Shown in pieces: positions 10,187 to 40,944 of a DNA stretch of 42,689 bases; position 1 is the first letter of the stretch; the number at the start of each line of letters is the position of its first letter. Origin of the DNA: Actinomycetes bacterium (GTDB lineage: Bacteria > Actinomycetota > Thermoleophilia > BMS3ABIN01); contig JAJYIM010000015.1 in NCBI GenBank assembly GCA_021790115.1, positions 1 through 42,689 of the forward strand, given 5' to 3'. The position numbers and the translations under genes were made by a program. The notes under the pieces are model-generated. The model had not been told where the DNA came from and did no database searches. It saw only the letters and a list, made by a program, of their open reading frames with translations.

Positions 10187-11611
10187 TTAAGGATATGTGT
10201 ATGTGGCGCCGGCGCCGTCCTGGGCGCTGCCGCTTAGGGCTGATACCCAGGAGGCCACTCCCGTGGGCACGTTATAGATCAAGGTGACCGTGCCGGAAGC
10301 GCCCGCCAGGATGTTGCCGCTGCCGACAGCCGCCGGCAAGGTTGAAGCAAGCGTGACGCCGTTGGTGTTGCTGCTGCCCGTCAGATTTACCGACCAGGCC
10401 TCAGCCGTGCCGGTGTTGTTAACCGTCCAGGTAACCGACAACCGCCCGGACAGGTAATCAGACAGGGAAGCCCAGAAGGGGCTGGGAGCGCCCAGGCCCA
10501 GGGAAGGCTTGCCGCTGGACACCATTGCCGTCAGCGGCAGATTGTCCTGGCCGCCGGTAAACACATAGGAGCTGTCAACAAAACCGTCATTGTTGCTGTC
10601 GGGCGATGTCCAGCTGCTCCAGTAGTTGCCACCCACGGGAGCCGGCTCGTTAAAGACGTTGCCGGAGCCGCCGCTGACGCTCGCCTGCGGCGTTGTCATG
10701 CTGGTGAAGTTGTTGTGATAAATAGTGTTATTGCTGGAGTTATTAAGGCTGATCTCACCCACGCCGGCCATGCCGCCCATGCTCGATGACATCCCCGACA
10801 TGTTGTTATTGCTGGTCGTGTTGCCGACAATCGTATTGCCATCCGACATGTTGAGCCAAAAACCGTTGTTGGCGTTGCCGGAAGCCTCGTTGCCGGTGAA
10901 GCTGTTGCTGTTATTGCCAGGATCAATGCAGAAGCCGTTGCCGGCATTCATGTCTGAATTATTTCCAGTAAAGCTGTTATTCCCGGAGTTTTGCAGAGAG
11001 ATGCCGTCACCCATGGAAGCGCCCATAACCATATTCATCAAAAGCATGTTGTAGCCGGAGTTGTTTAGGTTTATCCCCACCGCGTCGGCGTTGGAGCTGT
11101 TTGACATCAGCATGTTGCTGTTGGCGGCGTTAAGATTGATCCCGGTCGAGACGTTGCTGCCGGTGCTTACCTGTGAGATGGTGTTATTTTGAGAGCTGTC
11201 CAGATTAACGCCGTTATTGAATGCATCTATGGTGACGTCCTCGACAGTGACTCCGCTTCTGGCGGAAAGGTAGACGCCGTCGGCAGCGCTGTTGCCGGCG
11301 CCCGTCATGGTAAAGCCGTTGCCGTTTAAGGTGATGGAGTCGCTGTCAATTTCAATGCCTGCCCCGGACGCGAAAGTGAGGTTGCCGCCCAGCGTGCAGG
11401 TTCCGGTGCCCGCGTCCCAGGCGCCGATGTTGCTGCAATCCCCGCCGCCGGCCGCGTTGGAGATATGCTGCGTACCCGCCACGTACTGAGAGCCCGCCGC
11501 CCCGGCCGCCGCACCTGCAAAAGTTGCAAACAAGGCTGCCACCAGGCCGATAAACAGGATAGTGACAGCCGCCCCCGCCAACCCCTTCATCATCCTTCCA
11601 TTGACACCCAT
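10187..11611 (-). CDS. Secreted NosD-like right-handed beta-helix protein
   Basis: About 474 residues. A signal peptide (MMKGLAGAAVTILFIGLVAALFATFAGAAAGA) is followed by Asn-rich parallel beta-helix repeats (NNTISQ, NNSFTGNNSDMNAGNG, NSNSFTGNEASG). These end in a block like those closing NosD-family domains (NYWSSWTSPDSNNDGFVD). The C-terminal 110 residues look like a CARDB/DUF11-type beta-sandwich (LSVTWTVNNTGTAEAWSVNLTG). Beta-helix proteins of this kind bind or cleave carbohydrates, and no catalytic residues are identifiable. The ATG at 11611 is chosen because AAGGGG lies five bases upstream. A TTG at 11638 would add nine residues. Confidence 0.78.
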   Translation of the reverse strand: MGVNGRMMKGLAGAAVTILFIGLVAALFATFAGAAAGAAGSQYVAGTQHISNAAGGGDCSNIGAWDAGTGTCTLGGNLTFASGAGIEIDSDSITLNGNGFTMTGAGNSAADGVYLSARSGVTVEDVTIDAFNNGVNLDSSQNNTISQVSTGSNVSTGINLNAANSNMLMSNSSNADAVGINLNNSGYNMLLMNMVMGASMGDGISLQNSGNNSFTGNNSDMNAGNGFCIDPGNNSNSFTGNEASGNANNGFWLNMSDGNTIVGNTTSNNNMSGMSSSMGGMAGVGEISLNNSSNNTIYHNNFTSMTTPQASVSGGSGNVFNEPAPVGGNYWSSWTSPDSNNDGFVDSSYVFTGGQDNLPLTAMVSSGKPSLGLGAPSPFWASLSDYLSGRLSVTWTVNNTGTAEAWSVNLTGSSNTNGVTLASTLPAAVGSGNILAGASGTVTLIYNVPTGVASWVSALSGSAQDGAGATYTYP

Positions 11612-11784
11612 TCCAACCCCTTTCCCTAAGGCCCCCAACCCTAATGTCCGCTGCTAAGTATACGCTTCATTCCGAAAAAGTCAATAATATTAGTCAAGTA
11701 TTTGTAACATACTGAAACTATTACATTTTGTAGGATTACTTCTTGTAGGAGAGATAAAAACGCGACCCGTTACTTCCAACAAGG

Positions 11785-11826
11785 TATAATTTTTAATTTG
11801 CGTCTCAGTTATGGGACTCAGTTATG
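11785..11826 (+). promoter_or_regulatory. Candidate promoter and direct repeat before the MFS gene
   Basis: A TATAAT hexamer at 11785-11790 (no good -35) is followed by two copies of CTCAGTTATG at 11804 and 11817, 13 bp apart, just upstream of the MFS start. The repeats may be an operator. The rest of the 11639-11854 gap is AT-rich without further recognisable features. Confidence 0.35.
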
Positions 11827-11854
11827 ACTGTATGATGAAAAGAGGCTTGAACCT

Positions 11855-13168
11855 GTGCCAAACACTAATTCTGGCAAGTACGATAATAACGATAACGCCA
11901 ATGAGGAAACCTTCGTCCTGGAGGCCGAGGCCGAGACGTCGCCGCGGCGGCGCGGGAATCCGTTTGCTTCACTGAGATACCGGGACTACCGCTATTTCTG
12001 GTCCGGAGCGCTTGTCTCAAACATCGGCACCTGGATGCAGAACGTGGGCGTTGGCTGGGTTGTATATGACCTGGCGAGGACCGGCAATCCGTCGCTGGCG
12101 CTGGGTGTGATCAATTTTCTCAACCTGCTGCCGATGACGCTGTTCACCCTCTTTGCCGGCGTCATCGCCGACCGTCTCGACCGCAAGCGGTTTATCATAG
12201 CAACGCAGGCGCTGTTAATGCTGCAGGCATTGGTGCTGGCGTGGCTGACCCAGACAAATGAGGCGACGATGATGGTCATCGGGGCGCTCGTGCTCATTGG
12301 CGGCATCGTCACCGCCTTCGCCTTTCCTGCCTGGCAGGCGATCATGCCGGATATCGTGCCGCGCCGATCGCTGCTTAACGCGATTGCCCTCAACGCGGCC
12401 CAGTTTAACAGCGCCCGCCTGCTGGGACCGTTGCTGGGAGGCCTCGTCTTCGCCCGCTGGGGAGCTCCGGAGGTCTTTTACATTAATGCCATAAGTTTCC
12501 TGTTTGTCATCGGGGCGATGGCCTTCATTCATCCGCGGCAGGAGCGGCACAAGGCCGGCAGCGAAGGCGCCCTGGCGACACTGACTGCCGGCGTCCGTTA
12601 CGCCCGCCAGAACGCGCATGTCGGCTGGATGCTGATTAGCGCTTTTGCCCTCTCCCTGTTCGGCATGCCTTATGTCGCGCTGATGCCGGTGATGGCCGCC
12701 CAGGTCCTGGGCAGGGGGGCGTCAGGCTACTCGTTGCTGATGGCTGCCGGCGGCCTGGGCGCAGTGGGCGGCGCCCTCTCAGTCGCCAGCATGCCCGCCG
12801 GCGTCAGCCGCAGCCTGCTCATCCGCCTGGGGCTGATGGGCATGGGCTCATCGCTGCTTTTGTTCTCGCTATCGCGCAACTTTTATTTGTCGCTGGTCTT
12901 TGTGGCGATGGCCGGCTTCTCCTTTCTGATGGGAATGTCCGCCAGCACCACCGGGCTGCAAGCAGCCGCGCCGGCGCAGCTACGGGGCCGGGTGATGGCG
13001 CTGTTTGTGCTCTGTTTTGGTGGCGTGCAGCCGTTTTCCGCCCTCGGCTTCGGATTGCTGGGCGACGTTGCCGGCGTGCCGCTTGCGATTGGCAGCGGCG
13101 CCGTGGCGCTGATGGCTTACGCCGGCTACCAGTTCATCAGGCCGGGGTTGCTGCGGGCTCCGGGCTAG
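11855..13168 (+). CDS. MFS transporter (EntS/MFS_3-like exporter)
   Basis: 437 residues. A polar N-terminal extension of about 40 residues precedes SLRYRDYRYFWSGALVSNIGTWMQNVGVGWVVYDL, the characteristic opening of MFS_3/EntS-type transporters. About 12 hydrophobic segments follow. The conserved loop-2/3 motif GVIADRLDRKRFI is present, and LRGRVMALFVLCFGGVQPFSALGFGLLGD occurs in the C-terminal half. Relatives export siderophores or drugs, but no substrate is suggested here. The start is GTG with AGAGG upstream. It appears monocistronic. Confidence 0.88.
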   Translation: MPNTNSGKYDNNDNANEETFVLEAEAETSPRRRGNPFASLRYRDYRYFWSGALVSNIGTWMQNVGVGWVVYDLARTGNPSLALGVINFLNLLPMTLFTLFAGVIADRLDRKRFIIATQALLMLQALVLAWLTQTNEATMMVIGALVLIGGIVTAFAFPAWQAIMPDIVPRRSLLNAIALNAAQFNSARLLGPLLGGLVFARWGAPEVFYINAISFLFVIGAMAFIHPRQERHKAGSEGALATLTAGVRYARQNAHVGWMLISAFALSLFGMPYVALMPVMAAQVLGRGASGYSLLMAAGGLGAVGGALSVASMPAGVSRSLLIRLGLMGMGSSLLLFSLSRNFYLSLVFVAMAGFSFLMGMSASTTGLQAAAPAQLRGRVMALFVLCFGGVQPFSALGFGLLGDVAGVPLAIGSGAVALMAYAGYQFIRPGLLRAPG

Positions 13169-23782: not shown

Positions 23783-25105
23783 TTACAGGATCGACAGGTA
23801 CTTGTCCATCTCCCAGGGGCTCAGCTGCACCCGGTATTCATCCCACTCTTTCTTTTTCACCTCGAGGAGCCGGCCGAATATATGGTCTCCAAGAGCCTTC
23901 TTAAGCAGCTCGCTGTTCTCGGCGGCCTTGATTGCCTCCCCCAGGTTTTCCGGCAGCGTATCGACGCCGAGCGCCTCGCGCTCTTTCTCCGTGACCTCGA
24001 ACAGATTCATCTCCTTTGGCTCTTCCAGCTGGTAGCCCTTCTCAATCCCTTCCAGGCCCGCCTGCAGCATAACGGCAAAGGTCAGATACGGGTTGCAGGC
24101 CGGGTCGGGACTGCGAAACTCGCAGCGGGTGGCTTTCTCCTGACCAGGGTGATACATGGGCACGCGGATGAGCGCCGAACGGTTGCGCCGCGACCAGGCC
24201 TTGTAAACCGGCGCTTCATAACCGGGAACGAGGCGCTTGTACGAGTTGACCCACTGGGCAAAGACGACGCTGATCTCGCTGGCGTGCCCAAGCAGGCCGG
24301 CAATATACCCCTTGGCGGTGTCGCTTAAAAAGTACTGGTCGCTGCCATCAAAGAAGGCGTTGTCGGTTCCCTTAAACAGCGACTGGTGCGTGTGCATGCC
24401 GCTGCCGTTCTCGCCAAAGAGGGGTTTGGGCATAAAGGTGGCGTAGACTCCGTACTGCTCGGCGACTTCCTTGACCACCAGCCGGTAGGTCATGGCGTCG
24501 TCGGCCATTTTCAGGGCATCGGCAAAACGCATGTCAATCTCGTGCTGGGAGGGGCCCACTTCGTGGTGGCTATACTCGATCTGAATGCCCATCTCCTCGC
24601 AGGCCAGCACCGTGTCCCGCCTTAGGTCGCTGGCGATATCAAGCGGCGTCAGGTCAAAGTAGCCGCCTTTGTCCAGAATTTCCGTTCCCTCCGAATTCTT
24701 GAAATAAAAGAACTCCAGCTCCGGGCCAACGTAATAGTGGTCAAAGCCCATGCCGGCGGCGCGCTCAAGCGCCCGTTTGAGAACAAACCGGGGGTCGCCC
24801 TCGTAAGGCGTCTTGTCGGGATTGAGGACATCGCAGATCATCCGGGCGACTTTTTGCTCCTGGGGCCGCCAGGGAAGCACCTTGAAAGTGGAGGGGTCCG
24901 GCATGGCGATCATGTCGCTTTCCTCGATGTCCTGGTATCCGGTGATGGAGGAGCCGTCAAAGCCCATCCCGTTGGTGAGCGCCGTCTCGATCTCGCTGGC
25001 GGTTATAGCAAAGCTCTTCAGCTGCCCGACGACGTCGGTGAACCAGAGGCGAATGAATTTCACATCCTGGTCCTTGACAGTCTTCATTACCTGATCTTTG
25101 TCCAT
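23783..25105 (-). CDS. glnA: Glutamine synthetase type I (alpha-like)
   Basis: 440 residues, the length of GSI-alpha enzymes. Signatures are GFDGSSITGYQDIEESDM, the ATP-site NGSGMHTHQSLFKG, and KRLVPGYEAPVYKAWSRRNRSALIRVP. It makes glutamine from glutamate, ammonia and ATP. The segment that carries the adenylylated tyrosine in GSI-beta (NLYD) reads NLFE, so regulation by adenylylation is unlikely. AAGGAGG lies 12 bases before the ATG. It is downstream of amt1-glnK1 on the same strand, with repeat copy 4 between. Confidence 0.96.
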   Translation of the reverse strand: MDKDQVMKTVKDQDVKFIRLWFTDVVGQLKSFAITASEIETALTNGMGFDGSSITGYQDIEESDMIAMPDPSTFKVLPWRPQEQKVARMICDVLNPDKTPYEGDPRFVLKRALERAAGMGFDHYYVGPELEFFYFKNSEGTEILDKGGYFDLTPLDIASDLRRDTVLACEEMGIQIEYSHHEVGPSQHEIDMRFADALKMADDAMTYRLVVKEVAEQYGVYATFMPKPLFGENGSGMHTHQSLFKGTDNAFFDGSDQYFLSDTAKGYIAGLLGHASEISVVFAQWVNSYKRLVPGYEAPVYKAWSRRNRSALIRVPMYHPGQEKATRCEFRSPDPACNPYLTFAVMLQAGLEGIEKGYQLEEPKEMNLFEVTEKEREALGVDTLPENLGEAIKAAENSELLKKALGDHIFGRLLEVKKKEWDEYRVQLSPWEMDKYLSIL

Positions 25106-25811: not shown

Positions 25812-27035
25812 TTATATCAGCTCCTCAGGGTAAGCCTTGCCGGCATGGATGGTGAGATCCGAGCCCAGCAGCTCCTGCTGCGGCGTCAGCCTGATCCCCA
25901 TTATCATCTTGATGGCGCCGTAGACGATGAAAGAAGCAGCCAGCGCAATGGCGATGCAGGCGGCAGTGCCAACGAGCTGCGACAGAAAATTGACGCCGCC
26001 CAGTCCGCCCAGCGCCTTGTAGCCAAAGATGCCGCAGGCAATCCCGCCCCAAGCGCCGCACAGCCCGTGTAGCGGCCAGACGCCGAGCACGTCGTCGATC
26101 TTTAGCTTCTCGTTCGCCCACAGGAAGCCCTTGACGAAGATGATGCCGGCGATCGCGCCGGTGACCAGCGCCGCCAGCGGATGCATGACGTCCGAGCCGG
26201 CGCACACCGCCACCAGGCCTGCCAGGGCGCCGTTATAGACGAAAACGCTGTCACGCCTGGAGACAAGCACGGCGGCCAGCAATCCCCCGCCCATGGCCAG
26301 CAACGAGTTGGCCGCCACCAGGCCGGAGATCTTGGGCAGCGTCGCCGCCGAGGCGACGTTAAACCCAAACCAGCCCACCATCAGCAGCCAGCTGCCCAGC
26401 GCCACGAAGGGGACGCTGTGGATCTGCAGCGGCCGGCTCTGGCCATTTACATAGCGGCCCATGCGTGGTCCCAGCAGCAGGATGCCGGGCAGCGCCAGCC
26501 AGCCTCCCATGGCGTGCACGACAACAGAGCCGGCGTAGTCGTGAAAGCCGGCGCCGAACGCGCTGGCCAGCCAGCCGGTAGAGGAGCCAAGCACATTGAA
26601 GTGGCCCCAGACCAGTCCCTCGAAGAAAGGATAGGCAAAGCCGACGAAGATGGCGCCGGCCAGCACCTGGGGGCCAAACTTCATCCGCTCGGCGACGCCG
26701 CCGCTAATGATGGCGGGAATGACCGCGGCAAAGCAAAGCAGGAAGAAAAAATGGGCCAGGTTGTAGCCGGAGTTATCCGCCAGCAGTCCGGAGGCCTTGC
26801 CCAGAAAAGTGATGCCGTAAGAAATGGGAAAGCCAACCAGGAAATAAACAACCGTGGAAACTGCCCAGTCGGTCGGTATCTTGGTCAGCGCGTTGACGAT
26901 ATTCTTTTTTCTGACACTGCCGGCTTCCAGGAAAGCAAAGCCGGCGTGCATGGAAAACACCAGCACCGCCCCCCAGAGCAGAAAGAAAACATTGCCGGCG
27001 TTGACAATGTCGGTTAAACCGGTTGGGGCGTTCAT
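25812..27035 (-). CDS. amt: Ammonium transporter Amt1
   Basis: 407 residues with about 11 membrane spans. DYAGSVVVHAMGG holds the conserved pore aspartate and first histidine, and WPLHGLCGAWG the second. It conducts ammonium into the cell and is followed directly by its PII regulator. ATG at 27035 is chosen because AAGGAG lies six bases upstream. The open frame extends further, through the likely promoter. Unlike Amt2 and Amt3, it has no cleavable signal-like N-terminus. A TTGG-N11-CCAA motif lies about 115 bp upstream. Confidence 0.94.
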   Translation of the reverse strand: MNAPTGLTDIVNAGNVFFLLWGAVLVFSMHAGFAFLEAGSVRKKNIVNALTKIPTDWAVSTVVYFLVGFPISYGITFLGKASGLLADNSGYNLAHFFFLLCFAAVIPAIISGGVAERMKFGPQVLAGAIFVGFAYPFFEGLVWGHFNVLGSSTGWLASAFGAGFHDYAGSVVVHAMGGWLALPGILLLGPRMGRYVNGQSRPLQIHSVPFVALGSWLLMVGWFGFNVASAATLPKISGLVAANSLLAMGGGLLAAVLVSRRDSVFVYNGALAGLVAVCAGSDVMHPLAALVTGAIAGIIFVKGFLWANEKLKIDDVLGVWPLHGLCGAWGGIACGIFGYKALGGLGGVNFLSQLVGTAACIAIALAASFIVYGAIKMIMGIRLTPQQELLGSDLTIHAGKAYPEELI

Positions 27036-27147
27036 GGGCGGCTCCTTGACTGTCTTTGGCGCCGGGATGCCATGCCTTTGTGCATCGGTACAATTTCCGG
27101 CGCGGTTGCTTGCTCCAAAAGTATGTGGCCGATTGTACAAAGACCGA

Positions 27148-27169
27148 TTTGGCAAAGATTTATCCAAAA
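27148..27169 (-). promoter_or_regulatory. Candidate nitrogen-regulator site upstream of amt1
   Basis: TTTGG, 11 bases, CCAAAA (plus strand), including TTATCCAAAA. Almost the same dyad occurs upstream of amt3 at 37139-37160. The shared spacing and position before two ammonium transporter operons suggest a common regulator. The regulator itself is not identified in the window. Confidence 0.45.
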
Positions 27170-27224
27170 GTCCATACTTGTTGACATCAGTTTTGTCCAA
27201 ATGTACATGCATTCCGCGCTGGGG

Positions 27225-32883: not shown

Positions 32884-34365
32884 TTAGGCCCGCATCGGTT
32901 CGCCGGGATGCTCCAGCACCGGCGCATTGCGCAACCGGTCGGCCAGCGCTGTGCCGTCGGTGCCGTCATCCGGACCGACAAAGTGCTCCGGATAACCCCA
33001 CATGCCATGCTCGGCAAAGTCGGAGCCGGCCAGCTCCTGTTCCGGGCTGAGGCGAATGCCCACCAGCGCCTTCATGCCATAAAACACCGCCCCTGAACAA
33101 ATCAGCACAAATGTAAACACGGCCGCCACGCCCAGCGCCTGCACGCCCAGCTGATGAAAACCGCCGCCGTAGACCAGGCCGGGGGTGCCTATCTTCAGGC
33201 GCGACACCATGGCCGGGGCCGCGAAGATGCCGGTCGCCAGTGTCCCCCAGATGCCGGAGATGCCGTGGCAGGATAGGGCGCCGATGGGGTCGTCAATCCG
33301 GATGCGGTCAATAGCAAGGACCATTACCACCATCAGCGCGCCGGCGACGCCGCCAATGATTACGGCGGCCCATGGCTCGACGTAGCCGGAGGGGGCGGTG
33401 ATGGCAACGAGGGCGGCGATGGCGCCGTTGGCCGTCATGCCGATATCGGGCTTGCCCATTAGCAGCCAGGCCATCAGCATTGCGCTCAGGACTCCGGCTG
33501 CCGCCGCCATGTTGGTGACAACGGCGATATCGGCAAAGCTCAAATCCATCGCGTTCAGCGTGCTGCCGGGGTTGAAGCCGAACCAGCCCAGCCAGAGGAT
33601 GATGACGCCCAGGAGCGCCAGCGGCATGCTGTGCCCGGGGATTGGCTTGGGCTTGCCGTCCCGGGAGTATTTGCCAATCCTGGGGCCGAGGGCCAGCGTT
33701 CCCACAAAAGCAGATGTGGCGCCCAGCAGATGAACCACAGTGGAGCCGGCAAAGTCCTGCATGCCCAGCTGGCTCAGCCAGCCGCCGCCCCAGATCCAGT
33801 GGCCGACTACCGGATAGATAAAAGCAGTAAAAACAACGGCAAAGACAAAGTAGACTATCATCTTCGTGCGCTCAAGCAGGGCGCCCCAGACGATCGCCAG
33901 CGAGACCGCGGCAAATGCAAATTCGAACAGGAACTTTGCCGAGACAGGGGCGTTACTGTAAGCAAGAGAAGCAAAAACACTGTTTGCCTGTCCCGGGGCG
34001 ACATTTAAAAACCAGCCGCTGGAGCCGGCAAAACTTGAGCCGGCGCCAAAAGCGATCGCAAAGCCGACTGCCCAGAAGACAATTGCCGAAATTGACATGT
34101 TGACCAGGATCTTCCAGGCGATGTGGCCGGCGTTCTTGGCCCGCGTGAAGCCTATCTCAAGCGTAAAGAAACCGGCCTGCATGAAGAAGACCAGAAACGC
34201 CGCCAGCATCACCCACACGGTGTCGACGGCGATTGACTCCGGCGAAGGCGTGCTGCTTTGGGCAAAAGCCAGCGACGGGACAAACAGCAGGCCCAGGCCA
34301 GCCGCCAGCACAGCCATCACCATAAACGCTATTCGTTTTTTAATAACCTGCGCGAAATCTGTCAT
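32884..34365 (-). CDS. amt: Ammonium transporter Amt2
   Basis: 493 residues. A signal-peptide-like N-terminus (FMVMAVLAAGLGLLFVPSLAFAQ) is followed by about 11 spans. The pore motifs are DFAGSTVVHLLGA and SCHGISGIWGTLATGIFA. The C-terminus is long and hydrophilic (EHFVGPDDGTDGTALADRL). ATG at 34365 follows AGGAAAG. It comes after glnK2, the reverse of the usual amt-glnK order. The stop codon lies at the edge of repeat copy 5. Confidence 0.94.
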   Translation of the reverse strand: MTDFAQVIKKRIAFMVMAVLAAGLGLLFVPSLAFAQSSTPSPESIAVDTVWVMLAAFLVFFMQAGFFTLEIGFTRAKNAGHIAWKILVNMSISAIVFWAVGFAIAFGAGSSFAGSSGWFLNVAPGQANSVFASLAYSNAPVSAKFLFEFAFAAVSLAIVWGALLERTKMIVYFVFAVVFTAFIYPVVGHWIWGGGWLSQLGMQDFAGSTVVHLLGATSAFVGTLALGPRIGKYSRDGKPKPIPGHSMPLALLGVIILWLGWFGFNPGSTLNAMDLSFADIAVVTNMAAAAGVLSAMLMAWLLMGKPDIGMTANGAIAALVAITAPSGYVEPWAAVIIGGVAGALMVVMVLAIDRIRIDDPIGALSCHGISGIWGTLATGIFAAPAMVSRLKIGTPGLVYGGGFHQLGVQALGVAAVFTFVLICSGAVFYGMKALVGIRLSPEQELAGSDFAEHGMWGYPEHFVGPDDGTDGTALADRLRNAPVLEHPGEPMRA

Positions 34366-34399
34366 TAACTTTCCTTTCCCGCCATCCCGTGGCCCGGTC

Positions 34400-34738
34400 T
34401 TACAGGACACCGGATCCGGTCTCGCCGGTCCTGATCCTCATGGCAAACTCAACCGGGACCACAAATATTTTGCCGTCGCCAATGTCGCCGGTGCGGGCCG
34501 CCTCACCCAGGGTGGCGACAACCTTGTCCACGGCGCCGTCACCGACAACCGCCTCCACTTTGACTTTGGGCCGTAAATGAATGGTGAGCTTGGCGCCACG
34601 GTAGGTCTCGGTGTAACCCTTCTGGCGGCCAAAACCCTTGATCTCGGTGAAGCTCATGCCCTCGATGCCGATCTGCGACAGCGCGTCGCGCACTTCCTCC
34701 ACTTTTTCATGGCGGATAAAAGCCTCTACTTTCTTCAT
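34400..34738 (-). CDS. glnB: PII signal transduction protein 2
   Basis: 112 residues. PII motifs are EIKGFGRQKGYTETYRG and RTGDIGDGKIFVVPVE, with C-terminal RIRTGETG. By alignment, Tyr46 is present but residue 51 is Leu (YRGAKL), so the usual uridylylation or adenylylation tyrosine is missing. ATG at 34738 is chosen because GGAGGTG lies six bases upstream. It precedes amt2 by 34 bp and should regulate it. Confidence 0.92.
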   Translation of the reverse strand: MKKVEAFIRHEKVEEVRDALSQIGIEGMSFTEIKGFGRQKGYTETYRGAKLTIHLRPKVKVEAVVGDGAVDKVVATLGEAARTGDIGDGKIFVVPVEFAMRIRTGETGSGVL

Positions 34739-34922
34739 CTGGTTCACCTCCGTCGCCTCATCACATGGACAAACCGCGGGAACGCCGCTTGTGCTTCCGT
34801 CCTTATACTCTGGGAGTGTACGCGCCGTTTAGGCCCCGTGCCTTGGCCAGATGGAGGAAAAAGTTAATCAGCTGTTATACAGATGGAGCAGAAAGCTGAG
34901 GGTAAAGGTAAGAAAAGGGCGG

Positions 34923-34973: not shown

Positions 34974-35312
34974 CTAGAGGGCTTCGTCTCCCCTGGCGCC
35001 CGTGCGGATTGCTACAGCCTCTTCGACTTCAGTGACAAATATCTTGCCGTCGCCGATCTCCCCCGTTCTGGCGGTTTTCATGATAGTCTCGATGACGCGC
35101 GGGGCAACGTCGTCAGGGACGACTATTTTCAGCTCCAGCTTGGGGTTGAGGAAGATGCTCAGCTTGCTTCCCCGCCATTGCTCGGTATATCCCTTCTGCT
35201 TGCCAGCGCCCTTGACGTCGGTGACTGTCATGCCCCTGATGCCGATGTCATCCAGGGCGGCCTTGATATCGTCCAGCTTGATATGCCTGATTATCGCTTC
35301 TATCTTTTTCAT
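34974..35312 (-). CDS. glnB: PII signal transduction protein 3
   Basis: 112 residues beginning MKKIEAIIRHIKLDDIKAAL, the closest of the three to GlnB. The T-loop reads VKGAGKQKGYTEQWRGSKL: Tyr46 is Trp and position 51 is Leu, so there is no modifiable tyrosine in the loop. RTGEIGDGKIFV and AIRTGARG supply the nucleotide-binding parts. Its ATG overlaps the amt3 stop (ATGA), so it is translationally coupled to and presumably blocks Amt3. Confidence 0.93.
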   Translation of the reverse strand: MKKIEAIIRHIKLDDIKAALDDIGIRGMTVTDVKGAGKQKGYTEQWRGSKLSIFLNPKLELKIVVPDDVAPRVIETIMKTARTGEIGDGKIFVTEVEEAVAIRTGARGDEAL

Positions 35313-36961
35313 GCGCCTGCTCCTTCATCCAGAGATAGCGCAGTCATTGCCGGCGCTGCCTTCCCCGGGGGAGAGCCCAGCCCGGAGGGATGCGGCGTCA
35401 CCCAGCCTGGCGCCGATCCGGAGAAGTCAGGGTATGCCAGCGTGCCCATCTGGGGCAGGTCGAGGCCCTGGATTTCTTCCTCGGCAGTGACACGCAGACC
35501 CATGATCTTGTCTAGAATCTTAAAGAAAACATAGCCGCCGCCGAGCGCCACGATAACAACTGTGACCGCCCCAATGGCCTGGGCAGCAAACTGGCCGGCG
35601 CCGCCATAGAGGAGGCCTTTGATTGCGGTGGTGACTCCATTATCGCCGGCGCCATATGTGCCGTCGGCAAAAATGCCCAAGGAAATGACGCCCCAGAGGC
35701 CGGCGAAGCCGTGCACGGCAACCGCTCCGACGGGGTCATCGACTTTGAGCACCCGCTCAACGAAGAAGACTCCCGCGATCACCAGCGCGCCGGCGGCTAC
35801 GCCGATTGTCAGCGCCGCCCAGGGAGCTACAAAGGCGCAGGGCGCGGTGATCGCCACCAGGCCCGCCAAAGCGCCGTTGGCAGTCATCGAGATGTCAGGC
35901 TTCCTGTAGAGCTTCCACATGATGAACATCGAGGTGAGGCCACCGGCGGCCGCCGCCAGGAAGGTATTGGCGATAATCACGGCAAGCCGGAAATCGCCGC
36001 CGGCAAGCGTGCTGGCGCCGTTAAAGCCGATCCAGCCAAACGCCAGAAACAGTGTGCCCAGCACCGCCATGGGAATATGATGCCCAGGGATGGCGTTGGG
36101 GCTACCGTCCTTGTTGAACTTGCCGATCCGCGGGCCGAGCACCATGGCGCCTGCCAGCGCCACGAAGCCGCCCATGGCGTGAACGACCGTGGAGCCGGCA
36201 AAGTCAAGATACCCATTCCCGAGGCCAAGGTTGGCGCCCAGTTGCGACAGCCAGCCGCCGCCCCATACCCAGTTGCCGAAAAGCGGATAAAGGAACATGG
36301 AGATGAAAAACCCATAGATAACAAAGGCCGAGAACTTGAAGCGCTCGGCCATAGCGCCGGTGGGAATCGTGGCCGCCGTATCCATAAACACAAGCTGGAA
36401 AAGAAAAAATGCCAGGATGCCAACGTCGTACATGCCGGCGCCGCCGAACCCCTTGGTGCCGATGATGCCCCAGCCCTTGGCAACCTGCAGCATGCCGTCA
36501 AGATTGGCGACGCTGCCTAAAGTGGAGAGGCGGCCCATCCCACCAAACATAAGGGGAAAGCCAACAAGGAACCAGCCGATTACGCCAATGAAAAAAATGA
36601 CGATGTTCATCGACATGGTGTGAACAGCGTTTTTAGCCCGGGTGAACCCGGTTTCCAGCAACGCAAAGCCGGTCTGCATAAAAAACACGAGGGCAAAGCC
36701 GGTCATCAGCCAGATAAAGGCGGTGGCGACCTTATTGTGGCCGACCTCGTTGGCCAGGCTCTGCAGCGTCAGACTGCTGCCCTGGGCCGAGGGTGAGAGA
36801 TCCGAGGCGCTGCCGGTGGCGCCGCCGTTGGGATCCGTGACGGGAGCCTGCGCGGCCGGCGCGCTTGTCTGGGCGTGCGCCACGGCGCTTCCGCCCAGCG
36901 CTGCCAGCACCAGCGCCGTCATTGCGATAATGATAATGGATATTCTTGCGATAGTGCTCAT
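35309..36961 (-). CDS. amt: Ammonium transporter Amt3
   Basis: 550 residues, long for Amt. The signal-peptide-like start (IIIIAMTALVLAALGGSAVAHAQ) is followed by a polar segment of about 45 residues before the first pore helix. Pore motifs are DFAGSTVVHAMGGFVALAGAMVLGPR and VAVHGFAGLWGVISLGIFADG. The C-terminus is hydrophilic (YPDFSGSAPGWVTPHPSGLG). It is followed by its PII partner with a four-base overlap. A TTGG-N11-CCAA dyad like that before amt1 lies about 180 bp upstream. Confidence 0.94.
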   Translation of the reverse strand: MSTIARISIIIIAMTALVLAALGGSAVAHAQTSAPAAQAPVTDPNGGATGSASDLSPSAQGSSLTLQSLANEVGHNKVATAFIWLMTGFALVFFMQTGFALLETGFTRAKNAVHTMSMNIVIFFIGVIGWFLVGFPLMFGGMGRLSTLGSVANLDGMLQVAKGWGIIGTKGFGGAGMYDVGILAFFLFQLVFMDTAATIPTGAMAERFKFSAFVIYGFFISMFLYPLFGNWVWGGGWLSQLGANLGLGNGYLDFAGSTVVHAMGGFVALAGAMVLGPRIGKFNKDGSPNAIPGHHIPMAVLGTLFLAFGWIGFNGASTLAGGDFRLAVIIANTFLAAAAGGLTSMFIMWKLYRKPDISMTANGALAGLVAITAPCAFVAPWAALTIGVAAGALVIAGVFFVERVLKVDDPVGAVAVHGFAGLWGVISLGIFADGTYGAGDNGVTTAIKGLLYGGAGQFAAQAIGAVTVVIVALGGGYVFFKILDKIMGLRVTAEEEIQGLDLPQMGTLAYPDFSGSAPGWVTPHPSGLGSPPGKAAPAMTALSLDEGAGA

Positions 36962-37255: not shown

Positions 37256-37294
37256 TTGCAGAATGCGGATAAAAGGGCTACTATTTAGATAGTA
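37256..37294 (+). promoter_or_regulatory. BlaI-operon promoter with overlapping operator
   Basis: TTGCAG (-35, 37256), 17 bp, TACTAT (-10, 37279). The -10 is the left half of the perfect dyad TACTAT-TTAG-ATAGTA (37279-37294). A repressor bound here would block RNA polymerase. BlaI/MecI proteins bind TAC...GTA-type dyads, so self-regulation is likely. The same dyad recurs at 40482-40497. Confidence 0.7.
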
Positions 37295-37321
37295 AAAAAG
37301 TGCAATTACGGGCTTTGCCTT

Positions 37322-37732
37322 ATGACCAAAAGGAAAAACTACTGGTTTTCAGACCCGCGCCCCGTCAATCTGACTCCAGCAGAAGCTGAAATCATGCGGG
37401 TTGTCTGGGACAAGAGGCGGGCAGTCACTGTCAGGGAGGTCTATGAGATCCTCCGGCAGCGGAAGCAGCTGGCATACACCACTGTAATGAGCGTGATGGC
37501 CAAGCTCGCCAGAAAGGGAATCCTGACACAGGACAGAAGCGCAACCGCTTATTTGTATTCGGCGGCCGTGACAGATGAAGAAGTGGCGGGCAGCATCCTG
37601 GACGGGGTCGTGGACAATGTGCTTGCCGGCGCCGCCTCACCACTTATCTCCCGGCTGCTGGGATCAAAGAAAAAACTGACGGAAGAACAATTGAAAGCTC
37701 TGGAGAAGCTGCTGGAAAAGAAAGGCAAGTAA
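37322..37732 (+). CDS. BlaI/MecI-family transcriptional repressor
   Basis: 136 residues. The winged helix shows the family pattern LTPAEAEIMRVVWDKRRAVTVREVYEIL, TTVMSVMAKLARKGILTQDR and AYLYSAAVTDEEV. A C-terminal dimerisation helix follows (LTEEQLKALEKLLEKK). BlaI proteins repress their own operon and are released when a partner M56 protease triggers their cleavage. An M56 gene follows 21 bp downstream. There is no beta-lactamase or PBP2a here, so the operon's peptide and maturase are the likely regulated output. Confidence 0.92.
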   Translation: MTKRKNYWFSDPRPVNLTPAEAEIMRVVWDKRRAVTVREVYEILRQRKQLAYTTVMSVMAKLARKGILTQDRSATAYLYSAAVTDEEVAGSILDGVVDNVLAGAASPLISRLLGSKKKLTEEQLKALEKLLEKKGK

Positions 37733-37753
37733 CCTGTCGGAATCACTTTCCGG

Positions 37754-38842
37754 GTGGTGATTTCCTTGTTCCCCTCCTGGGAACGCATCGTCTATTTTCA
37801 TTTTGAACCAGCCATGCTTGACGGTCTGCTGGCGCTTGCCGGAGTCCTTTGTATGTTTCATATCTTCCGGGTCCGCGACCCGTCCGTGCGCTCGCTTTTT
37901 CTCTTTATTCCGCTGGTCCGCCCCCTGCTGATCCTGTTGGAAGGCGCTGCCGACCTGGAAAGGCAGCACCTTTCTACCGGAATGCTGCTCGGCCTGAGGA
38001 TTCCAGATCCTTTTCACATGCTCCCAGTTGACGTTGTTGGCCAGGAGCGGATGTCAACGACCGGCGCAACGGTGGCCGTGCTGATCGGGGCTGCCTTGAT
38101 TCTGGCCGTCTTTTTCCTGGCCATGCGCTGGGCCGGTTTCGTCATTTTCTTTCACCGTCTTAAACAAAGCAGGGGCGGCTTTGACAAACAGGAAAAGGAG
38201 CGCGTTTCAAGCCAGGTGGGCGCTCTCTCGAAAAAAATGAAGCTGAGCCAAGCTCCCGCTCTTCTTTTTTTAGCCGGCGCTGGCTGGTTTACGCCCTGCG
38301 CTATCGGCTGGCGCCGTCCCGCGCTCGTTATTGATACAGAAATGACCAGGATGCTGGACGATCAGGAGCTGGAGGCGGTACTAGCTCACGAACTCGCCCA
38401 CTTTGCCCGCAAAGACGGCCTCTGGCACTGGGCGGCGGTGCTGCTGGGCGACATCCAGTCTTTCAGCCCTATTTCCCATTTGAGCAGATCCCGCATAGAA
38501 CTGGAGCGGGAAAAAGCGTGCGACCGGATCGCGGTTTCAAGCGGCCAAGTGGCCCCGCGGTTGCTGGCATCCTGCCTCGTGAAGCAGTCACGCCTGGATT
38601 CCGGGAATTTGAAACCGCTGCCCAGCTTCGGCATGGGGCTTCTTAAAAAAAGAAATTACAGACTTTTGCAAGACCGGGTCAAGTTTCTGCTGACGATAGG
38701 AGAAAAGGAGGCGGATAAAAAAACGATGCGGCTGCTGGCAAGGGCAAGGTTTGCCTGGTTGCTGCTTCTGTGGCTGCCGCTATCGGTGGTTCAGCTTTAC
38801 GCCTGCGCATGGATCGGAAATTTTGCCCTTGTCGTCAAATAA
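37754..38842 (+). CDS. M56-family (BlaR1-like) membrane metalloprotease
   Basis: 362 residues. Membrane segments lie at about 22-38, 47-63, 103-132 and 338-358. The zinc protease motif HELAH is at 212-216, with the downstream acidic region ELEREKACD (249-257) typical of M56. The extracellular penicillin-sensor domain of BlaR1 is missing, and the protein ends shortly after the last helix. It may release BlaI repression, or it could cut the leader of the peptide encoded next. The start is GTG at 37754 or 37757 with a weak ribosome-binding site. It shares an operon with blaI, the peptide and the radical SAM gene. Confidence 0.85.
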   Translation: MVISLFPSWERIVYFHFEPAMLDGLLALAGVLCMFHIFRVRDPSVRSLFLFIPLVRPLLILLEGAADLERQHLSTGMLLGLRIPDPFHMLPVDVVGQERMSTTGATVAVLIGAALILAVFFLAMRWAGFVIFFHRLKQSRGGFDKQEKERVSSQVGALSKKMKLSQAPALLFLAGAGWFTPCAIGWRRPALVIDTEMTRMLDDQELEAVLAHELAHFARKDGLWHWAAVLLGDIQSFSPISHLSRSRIELEREKACDRIAVSSGQVAPRLLASCLVKQSRLDSGNLKPLPSFGMGLLKKRNYRLLQDRVKFLLTIGEKEADKKTMRLLARARFAWLLLLWLPLSVVQLYACAWIGNFALVVK

Positions 38843-38872
38843 CTGCAAGCCGGGCAAAACAAGGAGGCAATG

Positions 38873-39037
38873 ATGAAATCGCTGAATGCAGATCAAGCCT
38901 TGTGGCAAACAAAGGAAAACGGCAGCCGGTCAGCTTCTGCAAACGGGGTTGAGCCGGCCTGCTGCTGGTTCTGGGGCTGTTGCTGGTACTGGGGCATGTC
39001 GGCCAACCCTGATGAGCCCCTGCCGCAGGTCAGCTAA
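38873..39037 (+). CDS. Putative RiPP precursor peptide with tandem CCW(F/Y)WG core
   Basis: 54 residues, missed by normal length cut-offs. Residues 1-28 are a polar leader-like stretch (MKSLNADQALWQTKENGSRS and on to GVEP). Residues 30-41 are two direct repeats, CCWFWG and CCWYWG, and a 13-residue acidic/proline tail follows. It has four cysteines, five tryptophans (W11, W32, W34, W38, W40), and F33 and Y39. AAGGAGG ends five bases before this ATG; another ATG at 38870 is too close. It lies 30 bp after the M56 gene and 10 bp before a SPASM radical SAM enzyme, the classic position of its substrate. No family is recognised. Confidence 0.82.
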   Translation: MKSLNADQALWQTKENGSRSASANGVEPACCWFWGCCWYWGMSANPDEPLPQVS

Positions 39038-39047
39038 ATGGTGCGTC

Positions 39048-40433
39048 ATGTACTTGACAAAACGGCTGATTCGTGAGCACATTGCCACCGGCGAGGAAAT
39101 CTGGCTCAACGCGCTCTCCGGCGCAATTGACAAGCTCTCCGAAGTAGAGGTTGCCCTGGTTGAGCGTTCCCTGGGCGGGCAGCGCGGCGGCGGCTCCCTG
39201 ATTGCAAGGCTGAGGTCGCGCGGCTACCTTTTTGACAATGCCGCGGATGAGCAGTCCCGCTTTCGCCGGCTGGTTGCGGAATTTGGCAGGGAACAGCACG
39301 GCGCCGTCACCCATCTGGTGATATGCCCAACATACGCCTGCAACCTCCGCTGTGTCTACTGCTTCGAGCACCGGTCCCATCCCAACCTCCCGCGCGAGAT
39401 GATGGACATCGACGCCGTCAACCACGTGTTTGATGCCTTCTCCCGGATCCGCCGACTCTATCCTTCGCGCAATTACGCCCTGGGCCTCTTTGGCGGCGAG
39501 CCGCTGATGACCTCCACCAGGTTCGTTGTGTCAAGGATTCTCTCCAGGGCCAGGAAGAACAGGCTGCCGGTGATGATCGTCACAAACGGGGTGAGTGTCG
39601 CCAGCTACCTGCCCATTCTGGAAGAGCATCAGTCTGACATTCAGGCACTCCAGTTGACGCTTGACGGGCCGGAAGAAGTGCACAACCAGCGGCGGCCGGA
39701 CGCAGCCGGCAGGGGCACATTTGACGCCGTCGCCGCCGCTGTTGACATCCTGCTCGAGAAAAACATGCACGTGGTGCTGCGAGTCAATGTCGACCTTGGC
39801 AATGTTGACGAGCTGCCCCGCCTGGCGAAAGTTATTTCAAACCGGGGCTGGTCAGAAGCTTCCTCTTTTTCCTGCAGCCTGGCCCCGGTCAAGGATCATC
39901 TCGGAAGCGGCGCCATTCCAAACGTGCCCGCTGAGGCGGACCTCCTCTCCGCCCTGTTCGACGTTTATGACCGCAGTCCCGAAAGCGAAAAGATATTCGG
40001 GCTAAAAGGCCTGCAGGTGCTTGGCCAGCTGTCTGCCCTGCTTGGGTCCGGCGGCAGCAGCAGGCCAAAAATATATCATTGCGAAGCAAATCATGGCGGT
40101 TTTTGGGTTGCCGGTCCTGAAGGCCTTCTTTACGCGTGTCCGGAAGCAGTTGGACAGCCTGACCTTGCAATCGGGCGCTACACGCCGGCATTCGAAGTTT
40201 GGCCCCAGAGGATGGAGCCATGGATGGGAAGAAATATAAACACGCTCAACGCCTGCCGCAGCTGCGAAGTAGGCCCACTCTGTGGAGGCGGCTGCGCCTA
40301 TGCCTCCCTGGCCGGGAAGAATACGACTCCGGGCCCTTCCTGTGCCGCAGGGCTTGCCCGCGCACTCTCTGTTTATCTGAGCCGCCGCGCCGTCCAAAGT
40401 TGCCAGGGCAAAAAGGTCCGCGTCCGCAGTTAA
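39048..40433 (+). CDS. Radical SAM/SPASM peptide maturase
   Basis: 461 residues. The N-terminal 80 residues (LNALSGAIDKLSEVEVALVE, then LRSRGYLF) resemble the leader-binding region of peptide-modifying SPASM enzymes. The SAM cluster is C98, C102 and C105 (CNLRCVYC), with GGEP at 149-152. The C-terminal SPASM domain has C345, C364, C403, C406, C412, C416 and C432 in the expected G-x4-C, CX2CX5CX3C and final-C order, enough for two auxiliary 4Fe-4S clusters. It should install Cys- or Trp/Tyr-centred cross-links in the adjacent CCW(F/Y)WG peptide. ATG at 39048 starts just after the peptide stop, and the longer open frame is a shadow of the peptide gene. Confidence 0.92.
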   Translation: MYLTKRLIREHIATGEEIWLNALSGAIDKLSEVEVALVERSLGGQRGGGSLIARLRSRGYLFDNAADEQSRFRRLVAEFGREQHGAVTHLVICPTYACNLRCVYCFEHRSHPNLPREMMDIDAVNHVFDAFSRIRRLYPSRNYALGLFGGEPLMTSTRFVVSRILSRARKNRLPVMIVTNGVSVASYLPILEEHQSDIQALQLTLDGPEEVHNQRRPDAAGRGTFDAVAAAVDILLEKNMHVVLRVNVDLGNVDELPRLAKVISNRGWSEASSFSCSLAPVKDHLGSGAIPNVPAEADLLSALFDVYDRSPESEKIFGLKGLQVLGQLSALLGSGGSSRPKIYHCEANHGGFWVAGPEGLLYACPEAVGQPDLAIGRYTPAFEVWPQRMEPWMGRNINTLNACRSCEVGPLCGGGCAYASLAGKNTTPGPSCAAGLARALSVYLSRRAVQSCQGKKVRVRS

Positions 40434-40443
40434 ATTCGTTAAA

Positions 40444-40497
40444 TTGACATGACAAAAGCTCAAAAATATAATATAATTTTATACTATTCTTGTAGTA
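40444..40497 (+). promoter_or_regulatory. Consensus promoter with a second BlaI-type operator
   Basis: TTGACA (40444), exactly 17 bp, TATAAT (40467): a perfect sigma-70-type promoter 10 bp after the maturase stop. The dyad TACTAT-TCTT-GTAGTA (40482-40497) sits at the predicted transcript start and differs from the blaI-promoter dyad by one half-site base and by the spacer. The likely reading is a strong promoter held off by BlaI. Confidence 0.8.
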
Positions 40498-40777
40498 CTA
40501 TTTTCTAAGCAGAGAGGGCCTGACAAGGGGGCGGGAAAGAATCCCCTTTCCAGAAGGGATTCTAAGCAGGGTCTTTGGGCCGCGGCTCTTCTCGACCACT
40601 CGAGCCGCCAGGACGTGGGAGCCCGGGGGATCCTCTGGCTTCTGGTGCGCATGGTGGCCGCTGGTATAGAGCCTTTTGATAGGGCGATGCACTGGTCAGA
40701 TGCGCCGACGACGCCATGCAGCTTGCCAAGTGCCTGTCAGGAACAGGATTCAGCTTTGCTCAACAGCAAGGCTTTTT
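40479..40777 (+). ncRNA. Candidate structured non-coding RNA of the RiPP locus
   Basis: About 300 nt run from the promoter above to an intrinsic terminator at 40754-40777, with no ATG-started open frame having a ribosome-binding site. Nested complementary segments suggest a folded RNA: CCTGACA (40519) with TGTCAGG (40735), GCATGGTG (40649) with CGCCATGC (40712), local stems AGAATCCC/GGGATTCT (40538/40556), and GCGGCTC/GAGCCGC (40582/40602). It matches no RNA class that I recognise (not 6S, tmRNA, SRP or RNase P by their motifs). A frame open from GTG at 40615 is judged spurious. Confidence 0.5.
40754..40777 (+). terminator. Intrinsic terminator of the candidate ncRNA
   Basis: CTTTGCT and AGCAAGG form a 7-bp stem (one G-T pair) around CAAC, followed immediately by CTTTTTGC. 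Confidence 0.65.
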
Positions 40778-40823
40778 GCTCAACAAGCAGCTTAATTTTG
40801 CATAACATTGGCTTCACCTGAAA

Positions 40824-40849
40824 TTCATATCCTTGAGGCATAATATGAA
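40824..40849. promoter_or_regulatory. Inverted repeat in the ncRNA-LOG gap
   Basis: TTCATAT and ATATGAA (7 bp each, 12 bp apart) enclose a TAATAT hexamer. It may be an operator or promoter for a short transcript ending at the terminator 40882-40930. No gene was found between them. Confidence 0.3.
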
Positions 40850-40881
40850 CAGGTAATTGCTTAACCTTCACTTCATCCTTC

Positions 40882-40930
40882 GCAATGGAAATGGCGCCCG
40901 CGGGCGCCGTTTCCATTTGCCGGCTTTTTT
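40882..40930 (+). terminator. Long-stem intrinsic terminator
   Basis: A nearly perfect 19-bp palindrome (GCAATGGAAATGGCGCCCG with its complement, one bulged T) is followed by CCGGC and a run of seven or more T. It terminates plus-strand transcripts ahead of the convergent LOG-family gene. Confidence 0.85.
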
Positions 40931-40944
40931 TGAGTCGGATTCTA
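40927..40944. repeat. Possible diverged terminus of the dispersed repeat
   Basis: TTTTGAGTCGGATTCTAA matches the repeat end TTTTGAGATAGATTCTAA at 15 of 18 positions. As at glnK1, the TTCTA supplies the TAG stop of the adjacent minus-strand gene. The body of the repeat is not present. Confidence 0.4.

Follow-up and report, generated by a model that had tools for sequence, protein, structure and literature searches.

A 54-residue peptide gene and the radical S-adenosylmethionine (SAM) enzyme gene of SPASM type that follows it, both carried on the 42,689-nucleotide stretch of actinomycete DNA analysed here (the window), probably encode the precursor and the maturase of an undescribed family of ribosomally synthesized and post-translationally modified peptides (RiPPs). 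The likely product is a cross-linked, hydrophobic peptide made from an operon under BlaI/M56 control. All four genes lie on the + strand, in the order blaI, M56 protease gene, peptide gene and SPASM radical SAM gene. The initial annotation had read this gene order from the window, together with the 54-residue peptide behind a strong ribosome-binding site, the 10 bp gap and a SPASM domain with seven Cys, and each of these features was confirmed. The window is contig 11 of its host genome, which comprises 1.81 Mb and is 97.6% complete, and the closest relative bearing the locus is recorded as a Thermoleophilia metagenome-assembled genome.

Conservation of the CCW precursors

Related loci were gathered by a scan of named genomes, which gave 11, and by alignment-based searches, which added more. 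These homologous loci hold 27 distinct precursors, here called CCW precursors, with a common leader and a CC[WF] core near homologous maturases, a co-occurrence that is beyond chance. Where the flanking sequence sufficed, a short open reading frame (ORF) of this kind was present at almost all loci; L051 and a few loci at contig edges could not be judged for presence of the peptide. In the consensus, the leader reads M[K]S[LI]N...LW, and the core at the C-terminus begins with CC[W/F], its CC being separated from a further Cys by three to five residues (the W/F counted). The leader Trp and the three core Cys are invariant in all 27 precursors, and the leader Asn is found in 24. Core position 3 is W in 23 and F in 4, position 5 is Ile, Leu or Trp in 23, and Trp directly follows the last core Cys in 20. 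The cores, which range from CCFYLCL to CCWFWGCCWYWG in precursors of 30-54 residues, are small, hydrophobic and almost without charged residues; Asp or Glu of any kind occurs in just two of the 27. The core in genome G010 is CCWVIGCCWYWY, and that of L015/L016, CCWNIAWCWFWG, aligns with the window core, Trp replacing the third of its four Cys. Shine-Dalgarno sequences precede nearly all of the homologous precursors. In the window, 38873 is preferred as the peptide start because a congener has ATA for the first of the two ATGs.

The tandem CCWFWG/CCWYWG units noted by the initial annotation are present in the window, and the two TGYTGYTGGTWYTGGGG units are the sole ones in the 1.81 Mb genome (a reversed control gave none). 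The repeat does not extend to the family, however: 24 of the 27 precursors lie outside bacterial family f1 and are without such a repeat. The tandem arrangement is therefore a variant within f1, and the idea that a duplicated CCWxWG core yields paired macrocycles is not general.

Comparison with genome G002 shows that the core is maintained by purifying selection. Across the 12 core codons there is one synonymous and no nonsynonymous change, and 0 of 32 core nonsynonymous sites are changed vs 21 of 98 in the leader and tail (Fisher p 0.002). Loss of the small ORF at homologous loci, absence of selection on its core or pairing of the enzyme with another substrate had been named as grounds for abandoning the RiPP assignment; the ORF is conserved, the core is under purifying selection, and no other substrate was seen adjoining CCW-type maturases at the loci examined. 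The CCW precursors form a genuine, so far undescribed RiPP-type family that recurs in deep-branching Actinomycetota. The maturase was present in 30 of 397 sampled Actinomycetota genomes, and relatives close to the window enzyme are few (3 of 19 genomes of the same family, the window's own included).

Since the ORF precedes the maturase gene at most loci, it might instead be a regulatory upstream ORF or a membrane microprotein, with the maturase acting elsewhere. We give this explanation almost no credence. At L015, L016, L018 and L055 the maturase gene is divergent and the ORF comes after the M56 gene, not at the start of the maturase gene, and still has both leader and core. Its leader style is also common to CX3D peptides adjoining the same enzyme family, and the purifying selection on the core speaks for a substrate. 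The same four loci had at first seemed to be without a peptide, and a maturase acting elsewhere was considered, until the peptide was located behind the M56 gene.

A further CC-type core was observed in genome G774 (L099 1218-1440), where an ORF ending SCCLQACDCCLQIS precedes a related maturase.

The maturase and its predicted cross-link

The best relative of the maturase in the PDB by profile is CteB (E 7.7e-30). Its AlphaFold model (mean predicted local distance difference test score, pLDDT, 87) matches CteB (5why/5wgg, best), ChlB and SuiB. The CX3CX2C motif and all seven SPASM Cys (C345, C364, C403, C406, C412, C416 and C432) are invariant or nearly so in 28 homologues. The top NCBIfam models are those of the CefB, TIGR04463, Clo7bot and geopeptide maturases, all of which score far under cut-off (CefB, NF038107, 130 bits against 600; Clo7bot, TIGR04334, 107 against 600), as do PapB (NF047865, 82 against 340) and the SCIFF maturase (TIGR03974, 72 against 425). 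In the model, the N-terminal ~85 residues form three strands and then helices, as in CteB, and may constitute a RiPP recognition element (RRE). An Asn has been proposed as needed for binding of the PapA leader to its RRE (PMC9413430), and the leader Asn of the CCW precursors resembles that of PapA and fits this proposal.

An enzyme of Herbivorax with 30% identity to the maturase adjoins peptides that have the leader MNSLNNTNDLW and CCDQD repeats, in keeping with the CX3D rule of PapB. The thioethers made by CteB are S-C(gamma) links, and those that PapB makes in CX3D motifs are S-C(beta) links (PMC11002830, PMC9413430). When CCDQD is superposed on CCWxI, the acceptor falls at core position 5, the position at which I, L or W predominates, and for this reason we predict that the maturase would form a thioether to an unactivated residue at that position. 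Deep branches of the maturase tree are without resolution, and monophyly of the CCW-type enzymes with respect to the Herbivorax CCD type is therefore not claimed. The Herbivorax sp. ANBcel31 locus (L017 1541-8399) encodes an AMP-binding protein, a pair of SPASM enzymes and two CC-D repeat peptides with a CCW-style leader. One of these peptides was scanned, and NCBIfam models do not recognise it.

A different chemistry would be a carbon-carbon aryl cross-link of cyclophane type, for instance from the ring of Trp3 to the beta carbon of residue 5, which would leave the Cys free for a disulfide or a metal. The aromatic residue at core position 3 in 27/27 precursors and the beta-branched or bulky residue at position 5 would suit such a link, SPASM enzymes that join aromatics to their neighbours are known (triceptides), and Clark and Seyedsayamdost reportedly found an isoleucine-tryptophan crosslink in 2022. 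We nevertheless regard it as unlikely, given that the Cys are invariant whereas the type of aromatic varies (W or F at position 3), and that the nearest solved enzyme by both sequence and fold is the thioether-forming CteB; the cyclophane model YhhB scores 64 bits vs 130 for CefB.

In G002 the maturase frame (L009 911-2812) continues from about residue 383 as a GGDEF/HD-GYP tail, with loss of part of the SPASM domain. This fusion may be a real deletion or an assembly join; a real deletion is possible because synteny is kept further downstream, in the LOG and response-regulator genes.

BlaI, the M56 protein and candidate operators

Practically all loci whose flanks are long enough have the M56 gene beside the peptide gene. 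In the protein of 362 residues only M56/M48-type domains are above the Pfam cut-off, and the NCBIfam BlaR1 model scores 36.6 bits against 400. No penicillin-binding sensor domain was found by Pfam or NCBIfam, and the protein is too short to hold the BlaR1 sensor. The HExxH motif (H212, E213, H216), E253 and D257 are invariant in 20 homologues. The predicted model is of moderate confidence (pLDDT 74) and finds its best match in BlaR1, at weak template-modelling (TM) scores.

Most related loci have blaI; no copy lies near L056 or L062, and in L059 the gene is far away. At many f25 loci a second BlaI gene lies just downstream of the maturase gene (L010 9551-9955, L011 9578-9970, L012 9472-9924), and in L012 a second M56 gene (11125-12162) makes up a doubled regulator set with it.

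As in BlaI/BlaR1 and MecI/MecR1, a BlaI-family repressor stands beside an M56 protease with a BlaR1-like fold, and TAC..GTA palindromes occur. The CCW locus differs in having neither a penicillin-binding sensor domain nor a beta-lactamase, and the genes apparently regulated are the RiPP cassette and, in some lineages, an enzyme of cyclic di-GMP (c-di-GMP) metabolism. The palindrome TACTA-N6-TAGTA occurs at exactly two sites in the whole 1.81 Mb genome, both at the CCW locus (TACTATTTAGATAGTA and TACTATTCTTGTAGTA), where ~0.1 per genome would be expected (0.04 in the window at one mismatch or fewer). In L015/L016 this palindrome immediately precedes the peptide gene, and in G010 it stands between the maturase gene and a gene for a GGDEF-HD-GYP protein (L008 11037-11052). 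These placements suggest that BlaI binds TACTA-N6-TAGTA. An operator common to all lineages was also sought, and TACTA-N6(7)-TAGTA was found only in f1, L015/L016 and L058.

The best NCBIfam match of the repressor is CopY/TcrY (66 bits, cut-off 122). Together with the three invariant Cys and the Trp of the core, this match could point to a precursor of a metal-binding or redox cofactor, with BlaI and M56 responding to metal in the manner of CopY. BlaI and CopY have one common fold, however, so the score is hardly informative. Metal transporters and enzymes that would use the metal do not recur consistently near the loci, and small hydrophobic cores with almost no charge would be unusual for metallophores. 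The metal or redox role that the initial annotation had entertained thus found no specific support, and we consider it highly improbable.

Association with c-di-GMP genes

A GGDEF-HD-GYP gene directly follows the maturase gene in G010 and L013. In L047, L049, L050 and L054 an HD-GYP gene is only a few genes away from the cassette, and in L062 and L104 HD-GYP genes are divergent from it. The genomes carry 3 to 17 HD-GYP genes, ~9 being typical, and a chance neighbour within 10 kb would be expected at about 1 in 20 loci. The excess near CCW loci looks real, though it is not universal, and the independent cases come to about four lineages, since synteny is shared.

In the window, the ~440 bp past the second candidate operator (40498-40940) hold no intact gene and are 85% identical to the G002 intergenic region. 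Within them, 40683-40730 matches the G010 GGDEF-HD-GYP protein by tblastn (80% over 15 residues, E 0.022) and the G002 GGDEF tail by blastn (83% over 36 bp, E 2e-4). A GGDEF remnant thus apparently survives in the window, and the second site appears ancestrally to have stood before a GGDEF-HD-GYP gene. An Rfam search of the window gave no match, so the gap behind the maturase gene is not a known RNA.

The hydrophobic, Trp-rich and membrane-seeking character of the cores would also suit a bacteriocin-like toxin, with M56 as immunity protein or leader peptidase and BlaI setting the dose. A distant locus in genome G723 (L101 9064-16696, on a 6.8 Mb contig) could be read this way, as its core, CCWNCCFQI, is accompanied by an ABC transporter and two maturases. 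We hold a toxin to be rather improbable: the Actinomycetota cassettes have neither an ABC exporter gene nor an immunity gene as a conserved neighbour, and the c-di-GMP genes and common palindromes suit signalling better. At the G723 locus itself a DLW-leader peptide is followed by two SPASM enzymes in tandem and the ABC transporter, without M56 or BlaI; with two maturases and a transporter in their place, the locus indicates that peptides of the CCW type do not depend on an M56 neighbour in every case. G723 is likely to be a tractable relative.

Organization of the locus

Table 1. Features of the CCW locus, in window coordinates
Feature	Position	Strand	Evidence
BlaI-type candidate operator TACTATTTAGATAGTA	37279..37294	.	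begins 43 bp before blaI start
BlaI/MecI-family repressor, 136 aa	37322..37732	+	PF03965, 96.4 bits vs gathering cut-off 22.6, E 1.8e-27
M56 membrane metalloprotease, BlaR1-like, 362 aa, without C-terminal sensor domain	37754..38842	+	PF05569, E 2.8e-20
Ribosome-binding site AAGGAGG	38861..38867	+	sequence
CCW precursor peptide gene, 54 aa, MKSLNADQALWQTKENGSRSASANGVEPACCWFWGCCWYWGMSANPDEPLPQVS	38873..39037	+	27-member family alignment
Leader peptide MKSLNADQALW...EPA, 29 aa	38873..38959	+	leader Trp invariant, Asn 24/27
Core CCWFWGCCWYWG	38960..38995	+	0 nonsynonymous changes vs G002; CC[WF] 27/27
Variable C-terminal tail MSANPDEPLPQVS, family f1 only	38996..39034	+	unconserved
Radical SAM/SPASM peptide maturase, 461 aa	39048..40433	+	profile, motif and fold matches; 10 bp after peptide stop
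N-terminal RRE-like domain (putative), ~residues 1-85	39048..39302	+	AlphaFold model
CX3CX2C radical SAM cluster motif (CNLRCVYC), residues 98-105	39339..39362	+	homologue alignment
SPASM region, seven Cys, CX13GX4C...CX2CX5CX3C...C	40065..40343	+	homologue alignment
Second BlaI-type candidate operator TACTATTCTTGTAGTA	40482..40497	.	48 bp after maturase stop
Probable GGDEF-domain gene remnant (DALVRCADDAMQLAK)	40683..40730	+	tblastn and blastn to G010/G002 sequences

Upstream of the cassette are three ammonium-transporter-like genes (25812-27212, 32884-34747 and 34974-36961), two of them paired with PII-like genes, and a glutamine-synthetase-like gene at 23783-25105, which together form a dense nitrogen cluster as read from translations only.

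Discussion

We propose that BlaI represses the operon by way of the TACTA-N6-TAGTA operators and that relief of repression would allow the short precursor to be made. Its leader (MKSLN...LW) would dock on the SPASM enzyme at its RRE-like N-terminus, and the radical chemistry of the enzyme would introduce one or more intramolecular links into the C-terminal CC[W/F]...C core. The likeliest bond would be a thioether between a Cys sulfur and carbon, perhaps from the first Cys to the residue four positions on. The M56 protein might then remove the leader, or sense the small hydrophobic product and release BlaI, or both. In some lineages BlaI may also control the c-di-GMP enzyme, and the peptide would therefore be a signal; the mature CCW peptide is possibly one. 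A more specific version, in which the modified, membrane-embedded peptide is the ligand of a sensor-less M56 that cleaves BlaI and so switches on its own operon and the GGDEF-HD-GYP enzyme, is offered tentatively, as we consider it rather unlikely.

Several points weigh against a RiPP made and used in this manner. The CCW cores are without the Asp, Glu or Thr acceptors of known ranthipeptides, so the acceptor would be unusual and an aryl link becomes possible. M56 could be a regulator only or a peptidase only. No exporter gene is consistently near the Actinomycetota loci, which leaves the export of a signal without explanation. Only some loci have GGDEF/HD-GYP genes in the vicinity (those of f51, f64, f72 and f74 showed none), and the f25 loci did not yield the palindrome. 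The G002 locus may be decaying, as its maturase is without the C-terminal SPASM Cys. Finally, almost all of the Actinomycetota loci come from draft or metagenome assemblies.

Among known systems, the ranthipeptides PapA/PapB (freyrasin) and CteA/CteB (thermocellin, SCIFF) likewise have a Cys core behind an N-terminal leader and a SPASM maturase, and an RRE-like N-terminus of the maturase may be a further common feature. The CCW core, by contrast, has no CX3D/E or SCIFF pattern, is short, Trp-rich and C-terminal, and belongs to a BlaI/M56 operon, and its enzyme falls far under the PapB and SCIFF cut-offs. The 'Cys-every-fifth' system CefA/CefB provides the best NCBIfam model for the CCW enzyme, and the Herbivorax relative has a similar leader, but CCW cores are not periodic at every fifth residue and have no Asp, and the enzyme remains far from the CefB cut-off. 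Streptococcal RaS-RiPPs are subject to quorum sensing by Rgg/SHP and, like the CCW peptides, tie a radical SAM RiPP to a regulator within one small gene cluster. The CCW regulator is BlaI/M56 instead, no separate short pheromone gene was found, and the core is unrelated.

The earlier view of the locus as an unrecognised RiPP system holds against the model libraries. No NCBIfam family matches any of the 27 precursors at E values up to 1, Pfam gave nothing meaningful for any precursor (two members have a lone weak match to KH_PARP14, E 0.11), and every NCBIfam cut-off lies far above the score of the enzyme. A literature search returned no description of CCW cores or of a BlaI/M56 and radical SAM gene set; subscription papers were outside its reach, so a prior mention is possible. 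SPASM RiPPs are themselves known; what is new in the CCW family is its core and its placement in a BlaI/M56 context.

Current precursor models miss this recurring RiPP-type family because its precursors are 30-54 residues long and score in no library. The maturase may form a link that is not yet described, since the cores are without the usual acceptor residues. M56, nearly inseparable from the peptide, would be either a novel leader peptidase or a receptor of a novel kind in signalling of the BlaR1 type. If true, the proposed circuit would be a RiPP pheromone circuit that controls c-di-GMP through the signalling logic of beta-lactam resistance, and the palindromes allow a direct approach to the question of whether a RiPP acts on c-di-GMP in uncultured Actinomycetota.

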